Positions 32,888 through 44,680 of a DNA stretch of 64,000 nucleotides are shown here, piece after piece. A model generated the notes under the pieces. That model made no database searches. It saw only the letters and a list, made by a program, of their open reading frames with translations, and was not told the origin of the DNA. Both the position numbers and the translations under genes were made by a program. The stretch is taken from positions 24,407 through 88,406 of the forward strand of contig JAXGGA010004442.1 of NCBI GenBank assembly GCA_038373865.1, in the 5' to 3' direction. Each line of letters opens with the position of its first letter. Positions within the stretch are counted from its first letter, which is position 1. The DNA comes from Uloborus plumipes. Taxonomy: Eukaryota; Arthropoda; Arachnida; Araneae; Uloboridae.

Positions 32888-33020
32888 GTATTTGGTATAA
32901 ACTTACTTTACTTCTCTACATAATCGTCGTTCACTTCTAAGCATTTTTCGTACTGCTGCACCAGCTTCTTTAACCCTTCTGCATAGAAGAGTTGAACCAG
33001 TTGACATAGGCGTTTTTGAG

Positions 33021-33171
33021 TGCAGCGTACGAGATGTACGGCATGTCCCCGGCGGGGATAGAACCGGGGACGTCTGTGGTAGAAACCCAGTGCTTTGGCC
33101 GCTGGACTAAAAGGCCTCTTAACCCGGCGGGCAAAGTTGGGTTATATGCTCTCTAAGCGTACGCCGCCACA
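33021..33171 (-). repeat. 3' LTR of the TRIM-like element
   Basis: This matches the copy at 33453-33603 over all 151 bases except one T/A difference. It has the same TG...CA ends and tRNA-like centre. Confidence 0.8.
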
Positions 33172-33174
33172 ATA

Positions 33175-33184
33175 CTCCCCTCCT
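33175..33184 (-). other. Candidate polypurine tract
   Basis: AGGAGGGGAG on the minus strand lies 3 bases before the 3' LTR, where plus-strand priming would occur in an LTR element. Confidence 0.55.
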
Positions 33185-33437
33185 AGTGATGGAGCGGGGA
33201 GCGCGAGAGAGCGATATGCTTGAATTAGATGGAGCGCCAAGGAGCCAGGCGTTCTGGCTGAAGTTGTGCCTGTTGCTGCAGCTGGGAGAGTTGCTGCAGA
33301 GCAAGGAGCGTGTCCGCGGTCGGGCGCATGTGAGTCTGCGCCAGCGGTTGGGCGGACGTGGAGCGATGCAGGCAAAGTGAGTGAGCGATGGAGGAGAAGC
33401 AGATCCTGTGTTGCGTATGTTCATGGCACCATCTGTT

Positions 33438-33450
33438 GTCCGGGTCACCA
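33438..33450 (-). other. Candidate primer-binding site
   Basis: TGGTGACCCGGAC on the minus strand starts 2 bases inside the 5' LTR. It begins TGG, complementary to a tRNA CCA end. The primer tRNA was not identified. Confidence 0.55.
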
Positions 33451-33487
33451 ACTGCAGCGTACGAGATGTACGGCATGTCCCCGGCGG

Positions 33488-33497
33488 GGATAGAACC
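33488..33497 (-). promoter_or_regulatory. Pol III B-box-like motif in the LTR
   Basis: The minus strand reads GGTTCTATCC, one base off the GGTTCRANNCC consensus. It lies inside the tRNA-like segment and is identical in both LTRs. Confidence 0.6.
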
Positions 33498-33530
33498 GGG
33501 GACGTCAGTGGTAGAAACCCAGTGCTTTGG

Positions 33531-33541
33531 CCGCTGGACTA
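33531..33541 (-). promoter_or_regulatory. Pol III A-box-like motif in the LTR
   Basis: The minus strand reads TAGTCCAGCGG, matching TRGCNNAGYGG at 10 of 11 positions. It lies about 33 bp before the B-box-like motif, as in a tRNA gene. Function is inferred. Confidence 0.6.
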
Positions 33542-34056
33542 AAAGGCCTCTTAACCCGGCGGGCAAAGTTGGGTTATATGCTCTCTAAGCGTACGCCGCC
33601 ACATGAGTTCCTCTTCGGTTTCAAAACGTTCTCCACCGAGCCACTGTTTAAATGGCAAGAGGAAGTAGTCGCCAGGTGCAAGGTCGGGAGCGTACCGTGG
33701 GTGCTCAAAGAGTTCCCAACGAAAATCTTGAATTTTCTCCTTGGTTTTGACAGCAGTGTGAGGACTCGCGTTATCGTGGAGGAGGATTATGGTAAATGAC
33801 AGTTTCCCGCGGGCATTTGTTTTGGATCGCACGTCTTCACTTGTCAACGAATCACAGACCGCTTTTCACAGTTGGCGGTGTTAACGATTTTCGCTTCCAT
33901 TGTTCTTTGCATTCACGGACAACAATACGACTTCAGAATAAAAACAAATGTAGCTTCGCAGTGAGTCAGTTGATGGCCCTGCAGTAGCAAAACTGCTCAG
34001 AAGAGCCATTATTTAAGTATAAGCAAACGGCCCTTACTTTATGAACGAGCCTCGTA

Positions 34057-43006: not shown

Positions 43007-44680
43007 TCAAAATTCTTCTTTAGTGTGATAAATTTCGAAACAAGGAATTGCACACAAACCTACATCACAGTCTTTGCACATTGTACGAACATCCTTTCGA
43101 ATTCTTTTAAAATTATCAGTTCTTTTGCTGGAACACACGATGCATCGTCTTCTTGGTTCCATCTTACATGGTGTAGGTGGGATGTAACTCAGGAAATGCC
43201 TTTCAGTTAGGCGCAAAATATTAGCACTGTTTGAAATTCTTGATGGACTTAAGGTAGCTTCGGGACTATGGAATTTTTCAAGTAGTCTTTCCGCAAGCAA
43301 AACGCGAAAGTCTAAAAATTCCAGATATTTGCGATTATTTTTGCGATACAATATGTAACTATTAAAAATAGTAACATCCAAAAGGTGACGAAACATTTTT
43401 TTATAGTACTTTTTTTGTCTTCTCATAGACGAGTAATATGCCAGTCTTTGGTCACATTTATCAACACCTCCCATGTTCGCATTGTAGTCAACAACAACTG
43501 AAGGTTTCAGCACGTATTTTCCTCTTTTTTCAACACTTTTCTGGGTGGCATCGTGCACAGTTGATAACATGCAAACATCTTTTTTGTCCTTCCACTTCAA
43601 AGCTATCATTTTTCCCTTTTGAAAAGCTATGGTATTTCCTTTCTCCAAGTGAGAAAATTTAAGTTCTGCGGGTAAATTTTTACGATTTTTTCTTACTGTG
43701 CCGTAAGCATCTGTTTTATTGTTTATTAGCTCTTCATATAGCTCGGGAGATGTATAAAAGTTATCAGTAATCAAGCAATAGCCTTGATTCAGAAGAGGTT
43801 TTATCAGCGTCATTACGCATTTCGTTGCCAAGTTTCGATTTGCGAATTGTTCATCGAATAAAGTTGTTTTCCCAACGTAAACAGTCCATTTCCATACATA
43901 TCCTGTTGCTGCCTCAGATAAAACAAAAAACTTGATGCCAAATCTCGATCTCTTCGTAGGAATGAACTGGATCCACGACAATCTTCCTTTAAATTTCATA
44001 AGAGACTCGTCAATAGAAACATCTCTTTCTGGGATGTACACAGTAGAAAATTTCGTGCTTAGGTGTTCAAAAATAGACCAGATTTTTCTCAGTTTTGGTT
44101 CAGGACATGTTTCTGCAGCAGCATCATTATTAACGAAATGCAAAAACTTCGTCAGTAAATAATACCTTTTCTCAGGCATCACATTTCTGAAGAAAGGTGT
44201 TTCTAGTGATGGCCTTCTGGTCCAAAAAAGGCTTTCTTTTGGTTTCGGAGCAATACCCTGAAGAATGAAAATTGCAAGCAAAACTCTTATTTCTTCAGGA
44301 GAAGTTGGTTTCCATTTATTAGCTCGAGAGTGGGGCTTTAGCGTAGCATCTTTCAGGTAATCTTTGGCATACCTATTTGTTTCACAAGCAATATGATCGA
44401 CAATTTCGTCATTGAAAAACATATTGAAGTATTCCATTGGATCAGCAGCGTCTTTCACAGTTTCTTTTAATCCAGGATTACCCATGAAAGTAAATCGAGG
44501 TGGGGGATGTGTTGCATCATTTCTGCCAATTTTGCACCAATCCCTTGCATTGGATAAACCATCGCTTGCATCTAAATCTGAGTCACTTTCAGAGTCAAAT
44601 TCTGAATCATAGCTATTATCCTCTGAATCATAGCTACTGTTTTCTTCATCAGAAGAACCAATTAGTAATGAATCTTCCAT
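43007..44680 (-). CDS. piggyBac-family transposase, intact ORF
   Basis: The 557-residue ORF is open from ATG to stop and is by far the longest coding sequence here. The N-terminus (residues 1-40) is Ser/Asp/Glu-rich, as is common in piggyBac transposases. The DDE_Tnp_1_7 core follows. The predicted catalytic aspartates are D224 in VSIDESLMKFKGR, D306 in LITDNFY and D407 in GGVDKCDQ. Their spacings of 82 and 101 residues are close to the 78 and 101 of the founding piggyBac protein. The C-terminus holds a cysteine-rich domain (C513, C516, C535, C538, C543, C547, H552), the zinc-binding DNA-end-recognition region of the family. The start was chosen because the acidic N-terminus begins there. It should cut and paste at TTAA sites. 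No frameshift or lost catalytic residue is seen, so it may be recently active or kept by selection. Confidence 0.93.
   Translation of the reverse strand: MEDSLLIGSSDEENSSYDSEDNSYDSEFDSESDSDLDASDGLSNARDWCKIGRNDATHPPPRFTFMGNPGLKETVKDAADPMEYFNMFFNDEIVDHIACETNRYAKDYLKDATLKPHSRANKWKPTSPEEIRVLLAIFILQGIAPKPKESLFWTRRPSLETPFFRNVMPEKRYYLLTKFLHFVNNDAAAETCPEPKLRKIWSIFEHLSTKFSTVYIPERDVSIDESLMKFKGRLSWIQFIPTKRSRFGIKFFVLSEAATGYVWKWTVYVGKTTLFDEQFANRNLATKCVMTLIKPLLNQGYCLITDNFYTSPELYEELINNKTDAYGTVRKNRKNLPAELKFSHLEKGNTIAFQKGKMIALKWKDKKDVCMLSTVHDATQKSVEKRGKYVLKPSVVVDYNANMGGVDKCDQRLAYYSSMRRQKKYYKKMFRHLLDVTIFNSYILYRKNNRKYLEFLDFRVLLAERLLEKFHSPEATLSPSRISNSANILRLTERHFLSYIPPTPCKMEPRRRCIVCSSKRTDNFKRIRKDVRTMCKDCDVGLCAIPCFEIYHTKEEF

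Follow-up and report, generated by a model that had tools for sequence, protein, structure and literature searches.

Positions 33021-33603 of the window (the whole 64-kb stretch of spider DNA analysed here) hold, on the minus strand, an LTR element of 583 bp that is, when the explanation is taken as a whole, very probably a TRIM of the Helenus type, with tRNA-derived sequence in its LTRs and proposed mobilisation by a Gypsy element, RNA polymerase III (Pol III) being its presumed transcriber. The element comprises two LTRs, a primer-binding site (PBS), a non-coding interior and a PPT.

Structure of the element and origin of its LTR

The direct repeats, 33021-33171 and 33453-33603, are 151 nt each with one difference and have TG...CA termini; in the element's own direction, that of the minus strand, 33453..33603 is the 5' LTR (TGTGGCGG...GCTGCA) and 33021..33171 is the 3' LTR. 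The PBS (TGGTGACCCGGAC; 33438..33450, minus strand) starts two bases past the 5' LTR. All four host tRNA-Trp genes fetched end in GTCCGGGTCA, so that with the CCA added their 3' end is complementary to the PBS at 13 of 13 positions; the query was designed to fit the PBS and tRNA-Trp alone was compared with it, so that the result bears on the existence of such genes. The internal region (281 bp; 33172..33452, minus strand) encodes no transposition protein and includes, adjoining the 3' LTR, the PPT (AGGAGGGGAGTAT; 33172..33184, minus strand). On both sides, the element is flanked by the target-site duplication TGAG (33017..33020 and 33604..33607), and it interrupts a transposase relic (32973..33865, minus strand) that we take, from its motifs, to be mariner-like. 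When the flanks of the relic are joined with one TGAG, the reading frame continues across the junction and matches Pfam DDE_3 at 27.9 bits (E = 2.4e-6), slightly below the 28.6-bit cut-off of that family. The repeat comparison bears out the preliminary description of this DNA, which listed paired 151-bp LTRs with TG...CA ends and 150/151 identity, as well as a PBS, a PPT and a TGAG duplication fitting a TRIM, all of which were located in the minus-strand reading.

A majority LTR built from 87 copies was compared with 12 of the 24 host tRNA sequences fetched, the tRNA-family search having scored the best 63 of 112190 first-look candidates and tRNA-Glu being among those left uncompared. The best-aligning of the 12 was tRNA-Arg(TCT): LTR positions 58-126 align without gaps to tRNA positions 3-71, with 46 of 69 positions identical and a score of 23, compared with 7.7 +/- 1.3 for shuffled sequences, none of 300 of which reaches 23. 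Placed whole and ungapped at LTR position 56, this tRNA is identical at 47 of 73 positions, and the corresponding segment of the window's 5' LTR is 33476..33548 (minus strand; LTR positions 56-128). The antisense LTR scores 9 against tRNA-Arg(TCT); the match is thus confined to the sense strand of the element. Scores for tRNA-Cys (16) and two tRNA-Thr (13) likewise exceed all 300 shuffles because tRNAs resemble one another. On this evidence of sequence, the descent of the LTR segment from a tRNA is shown.

The A box (TAGTCCAGCGG) lies on the minus strand at 33531..33541 in the 5' LTR and at 33099-33109 in the 3' LTR, and the B box (GGTTCTATCCC), with one departure from GGTTCRANYCC, lies on the same strand at 33487..33497 and 33055-33065, respectively. 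The starts of the A box and the B box (GGTTCTATCC) are 44 nt apart. On both strands of the 64-kb window, the A+B pattern at this spacing occurs in these two LTRs only, and none of 1000 shuffled LTRs contains such a pair at any gap of 25-60 nt. Among the 87 LTRs, the A box is exact in 81 and fits TRGYNNANNNG in 84, and the B box fits the strict consensus in one and GGTTCNANYCC (any base at position 6) in 74. Conservation at the A and B columns does not exceed that elsewhere in the LTR (P = 0.39) and the B box is imperfect nearly everywhere, so that selection on the promoter is unsupported. A TTTT run (minus strand; 33541..33544 in the 5' LTR, 33109-33112 in the 3' LTR), which in the 3' LTR may serve as a Pol III terminator, is the single such run when the 432-bp unit is read in the sense direction; this depletion of TTTT within the unit is not beyond chance (shuffle mean 0.6).

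The ancestral tRNA is decayed and recognisable mainly through the alignment with host tRNA-Arg, since ARAGORN and Rfam find none in the element. ARAGORN reports no tRNA in the 64-kb window and calls tRNA-Arg(tct) in one of the 41 loci scanned (L024); Rfam gives no tRNA at the gathering score in the window, none at E<=5 in the element and none in the TRIM LTRs of the 20 loci (of 41) submitted, where the single tRNA-like hit falls in a flank. The 73-nt segment does not fold into a cloverleaf, and a functional tRNA is rejected on this ground together with the lack of an Rfam match in the element. Thus, the tRNA-like LTR middle with A and B boxes at tRNA spacing, as proposed in the preliminary description, is upheld by the sense-strand alignment with host tRNA-Arg(TCT), and the covariance-model check also suggested there came out negative in the element at E<=5.

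Several other features were observed. None of 200 shuffled sequences folds as stably as the RNA of the window's 5' LTR (150 nt; z = -3.7), and a 10-bp inverted repeat (GCGGCGTACG) is present near both ends of the majority LTR. In the flank of one locus (L019, 220-277), there is a tRNA-like stretch of 21.6 bits, below the Rfam cut-off, that is perhaps a SINE. Of the 40 tRNA-Trp matches listed, 31 are on a single 22-kb contig (C18473; L090), 27 of them on one strand and mostly at 194-bp spacing; they form a tandem tRNA-Trp array. Among the matches listed, C956:982-2778 holds 13 tRNA genes at a spacing of about 144 bp, and the one fetched (L098) is tRNA-Arg(TCG). Elsewhere in the window, 43007-44680 is an open 557-aa frame for a piggyBac-type transposase (DDE_Tnp_1_7), the best match of which is a spider protein, from Uloborus (78% over 57%). 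Among the best 120 matches listed for an HSP70 of this genome, identity is 96% to Uloborus diversus, 91-92% to the best Stegodyphus hits, about 87-91% to most other spiders and about 79-83% to ticks, the first rows being longer vertebrate, worm and mussel proteins at 70-76%; a search for COX1 found none. These comparisons make the host a spider, probably close to Uloboridae.

Copies and tandem arrays in the genome

A search of the 1.42-Gb genome, in which the best 40 of 446 first-look candidates were scored and overlapping units of tandem arrays were counted apart, gave at least 52 matching rows, 51 of which span at least 550 bases at 93-100%. The rows lie on 40 contigs, and 39 of the 40 loci were read (C7527 was left out; L006 and L007 were dropped because they are covered by L041 and L040); since the best-scoring copies were taken, the loci read are biased towards intact copies. 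Exact 4-bp duplications are present at 28 of the 39 loci, and the distinct insertions among them number fewer than 28 because the window copy (L001) and L002, which match at 99.7% over 2189 bp, look like two haplotypes of one insertion, and because L003 and L038 have their flanks and an AATG duplication in common. In the latter pair, the same insertion point is occupied in two repeat copies, by a single TRIM unit in one and by a two-unit array in the other.

L003 and L023 belong to one repeat family with different insertion places, and each shows the empty site of the other: L003 reads ctaataAATG[element]AATGtaaac, and L023 at that point reads ctaataaatgtaaac. Solo LTRs with 4-bp duplications were found at three loci (L049, L066 and L078). 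The divergence between the LTRs of a copy ranges from K = 0 to 0.092, with a mean of 0.036 over 30 two-LTR loci, among which L001 and L002 each count as one. The PBS is exact in 40 of 50 internal regions, and GGAGGGGAGTAT of the PPT is exact in 41 of 50. Hence the genome search that the preliminary description had proposed yielded LTR pairs, solo LTRs and 4-bp duplications, with many full-length copies carrying LTR, PBS and PPT; lone tRNA-like units bearing poly-A tails and flanked by long duplications, which it had named as the mark of a SINE, were not seen among the loci read.

Some loci are irregular. In L067 (1501-2003), the LTRs are inverted around a partial interior with a 4-bp AGTC duplication outside, and this copy looks like an aberrant or autointegration product; in L035 (378-1064), an incomplete LTR in the opposite orientation comes after a TRIM copy. 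At L051 (530-619), part of the TRIM interior (7-96) is present with no LTRs, in unrelated surroundings about 0.9 kb from a truncated TRIM, next to what is presumably, by eye, a hAT-like transposase relic; as an internal fragment outside any LTR-bounded element, this piece was rejected as a guide to the helper's identity.

Arrays of 3 to 6 LTRs were found at 7 of the 39 loci. In L033, the outer LTRs differ from each other at 2 positions and the middle LTR differs from both at 16; the outer LTRs are 6 apart in L041, compared with 17-18 to the middle one, and the corresponding values are 9 and 12 in L040 and 0 and 1 in L038. This pattern is lacking in L034 (4, compared with 3 and 5), and there is little variation among the LTRs of the two longer arrays, L015 and L026. 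Where a diverged middle LTR stands between two that match, retrotransposition of a multi-unit RNA would fit, and it is also possible that arrays formed by recombination of DNA copies; both routes are discussed for plants (PMC11899658).

Proposed Gypsy helper and life cycle

One copy (L073, on contig C4594), which has an AACT duplication and TRIM LTRs differing at 0 of 151 positions, carries between its 5' LTR and the TRIM PBS 212 bp that are identical to the stretch with the PBS and the beginning of gag in an element on contig C23013. The insert begins at the first base past the LTR with the PBS of the helper, followed by an ATG-started frame (MTELELLQ...LPPFWPEKPA); where the two sequences meet, gag and the end of the TRIM LTR have CCGCAGTT in common, an 8-nt microhomology. 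In a genome search with the 212 bp, all 39 first-look candidates were scored and matched, and three rows, including L073, had the identical top score; a single split copy may account for two of the 39 rows, both on C6064, and a further two are incomplete. In each of the three other copies fetched, a 218-220 bp LTR of the copy's own lies upstream, and the frame continues as gag, with the domain DUF7041 in the one copy tested. Contig C1296 encodes RT, RNase H and integrase zinc-binding domains, followed by a second LTR, with GAAG at both sides. A search of the protein collection with the gag start gave 2 candidates, none at E<=0.001, and a search of solved structures gave no match at E<=1. The TRIM and the helper have in common the 13-nt PBS and the first seven LTR bases, TGTGGCG; beyond these, nothing detectable is shared with this one Gypsy family, and the LTRs of the three helper copies show no significant similarity to the TRIM LTR.

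L073 looks like the product of a template switch between TRIM and Gypsy that identifies the helper, and it is for this reason that a Gypsy helper is proposed. In the simplest reading, the reverse transcriptase on the TRIM RNA would have switched to Gypsy RNA and ended at the Gypsy PBS, which would require both RNAs within one particle. On the strength of this copy, it is strongly suggested that a Ty3/Gypsy element of the same genome reverse-transcribes and inserts the TRIM; mobilisation by Gypsy has indirect support from the recombinant, the common PBS and the equal duplication length. L073 is the only TRIM/helper recombinant found, in a draft assembly of 25906 contigs, and its insert could have arisen after the copy integrated, through gene conversion or the joining of a DNA fragment at a break, or could reflect an assembly error; it would then be uninformative on the helper. 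We consider this improbable given that the insert is bounded by the helper PBS directly after the LTR and by the 8-nt microhomology with the TRIM LTR end, that a single AACT duplication encloses the entire copy, whose LTRs are identical, and that template switching followed by plus-strand transfer at the PBS would yield such a structure.

Under the proposed life cycle, the LTR would have acquired its tRNA-like segment from a gene resembling tRNA-Arg(TCT), or from a SINE derived from such a gene. Directed by the A and B boxes, Pol III might start at about LTR position 50, and the transcript would cross the interior and end at the TTTT (LTR 60-63) of the 3' LTR, with a predicted terminal redundancy of about 10-15 nt; this model would need the TTTT of the 5' LTR, about 10 nt past the start, to be ignored. 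The TRIM RNA would be packaged in Gypsy particles and copied with tRNA-Trp as the primer at the PBS, with integration via 4-bp staggered cuts. A more specific version, to which we give slightly less than an even chance, is that an LTR element transcribed by Pol III is packaged and copied by a Gypsy that depends on Pol II, the two having only the 13-nt PBS and the seven terminal bases in common, with L073 keeping a template switch between their RNAs and L033-like arrays recording multi-unit RNA that extended past the TTTT.

Like the LTR studied here, tRNA-derived SINEs owe their type 2 Pol III promoter elements to a tRNA gene; LINEs copy them through target-primed reverse transcription, and they lack LTRs, a PBS, a PPT and 4-bp duplications. 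Two SINEs in direct orientation, mistaken for LTRs, would account for the tRNA-derived sequence with its A and B boxes in a genome where tRNA-like sequence is as abundant as the first-look candidates indicate; however, this possibility is ruled out by the LTR-interior-LTR anatomy with the PBS to tRNA-Trp, PPT, TG..CA ends and 4-bp duplications, by the empty sites and by the solo LTRs, and the single tailed units and long duplications typical of SINEs were not seen in the loci read. The arrays of 3 to 6 LTRs at 7 of 39 loci also bring to mind a retrozyme-like or other small circular-RNA element, which is highly improbable in view of the four Rfam matches at E<=5 (651 bp), among which there is no hammerhead or other ribozyme family. 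There is, finally, an unlikely but still credible reading in which the element is an ordinary TRIM driven by Pol II; a SINE or tRNA gene would at some time have entered the LTR and would persist there as a passenger that does not drive transcription. TATAA at LTR 26-30, about 30 nt ahead of a plausible start, is compatible with Pol II initiation, and the imperfect B box in nearly all copies and the ordinary conservation of the A and B columns point the same way; what argues against a passenger is that 84 of 87 LTRs have an A box conforming to the consensus and the two boxes are spaced as in a tRNA gene, that the TRIM LTR lacks the AATAAA present in the helper LTR, and that tRNA or 5S promoter sequence recurs across TRIMs, which argues for its use (PMC10886601).

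Relation to Helenus and other TRIMs

The Helenus (TRIMp3) elements of Kojima 2024 (PMC10886601) are TRIMs with tRNA-derived LTR sequence from fungi, animals and a plant. According to the main text of that paper, animal Helenus elements have 4-bp duplications and Gypsy helpers inferred via PBS similarity, and form tandem arrays in zebrafish; Helenus elements generally encode no functional tRNA, their use of Pol III being expected but unproven; box A is TRGCY with YGG in most, but not all, families, and box B is GGTTC. The arthropods in its Table 1 are Hymenoptera only, and the terms spider, arachnid, Araneae and chelicer- are absent from its main text (PMC10886601).

Compared with Helenus as so described, the spider element has the same TRIM length and structure, tRNA-derived LTR sequence, PPT, 4-bp duplications and tandem arrays, mostly no functional tRNA, a PBS to a tRNA 3' end (tRNA-Trp is used by some hymenopteran Helenus) and a proposed Gypsy helper. 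It differs from the listed arthropod members in its host, a spider and not a hymenopteran; the nearest tRNA among those compared here is tRNA-Arg(TCT), and the A box is TAGTC..CGG, unlike the TRGCY of most Helenus families (fourth base T, not C), with YGG and the box B GGTTC present. The helper is pointed to by a recombinant, whereas the animal helpers in that paper were inferred from PBS similarity. Judged by its sequence, the element is of the Helenus (TRIMp3) kind and not a new class, fitting the features tested except for the C of TRGCY in the A box. Accordingly, the observation made in the preliminary description and its reading as a TRIM with a tRNA-derived LTR stand, but the proposal of a distinct new SINE/LTR hybrid, with Cassandra as the sole parallel, does not, given that Helenus, arthropod members included, was described in 2024 (PMC10886601).

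What is added to Helenus is a spider host, which widens the range of tRNA-LTR TRIMs among arthropods beyond Hymenoptera, and one copy that holds a Ty3/Gypsy PBS and gag start. In open-licence literature, as represented by titles and the starts of abstracts outside Repbase and supplements, we found no arachnid Helenus and no animal TRIM/Gypsy recombinant. How the dependence of a TRIM on an autonomous element is maintained is not known, and nothing indicates the autonomous partner of Cassandra, according to the main text of Kojima 2024 (PMC10886601); the recombinant copy singles out a candidate partner within the spider's own genome, and with such a partner in hand it becomes testable how little common sequence (PBS and LTR terminus) suffices for trans-mobilisation. 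The annotation of tRNAs in such genomes may also catch TRIM LTRs, as it did at one of 41 loci.

PbTRIM of ants is, like the spider element, a TRIM from an arthropod that shows 4-bp duplications and also occurs as solo LTRs; the abstract describing it makes no mention of a tRNA-derived LTR segment (PMC3532108). With Cassandra of plants, the spider element shares a Pol III-type small-RNA gene in the LTR, a PBS, a PPT and tandem arrays (PMC7215508). Both would have a short terminal redundancy, 18 bp in Cassandra (PMC10886601) and a predicted 10-15 nt or so here. Of a 5S rRNA-derived LTR segment, as in Cassandra and Ajax, there is no sign in the element (no 5S match in Rfam at E<=5). Unlike Cassandra, in which the LTR segment is derived from 5S rRNA and the hosts are plants, the element described here carries a tRNA-derived segment in a spider.
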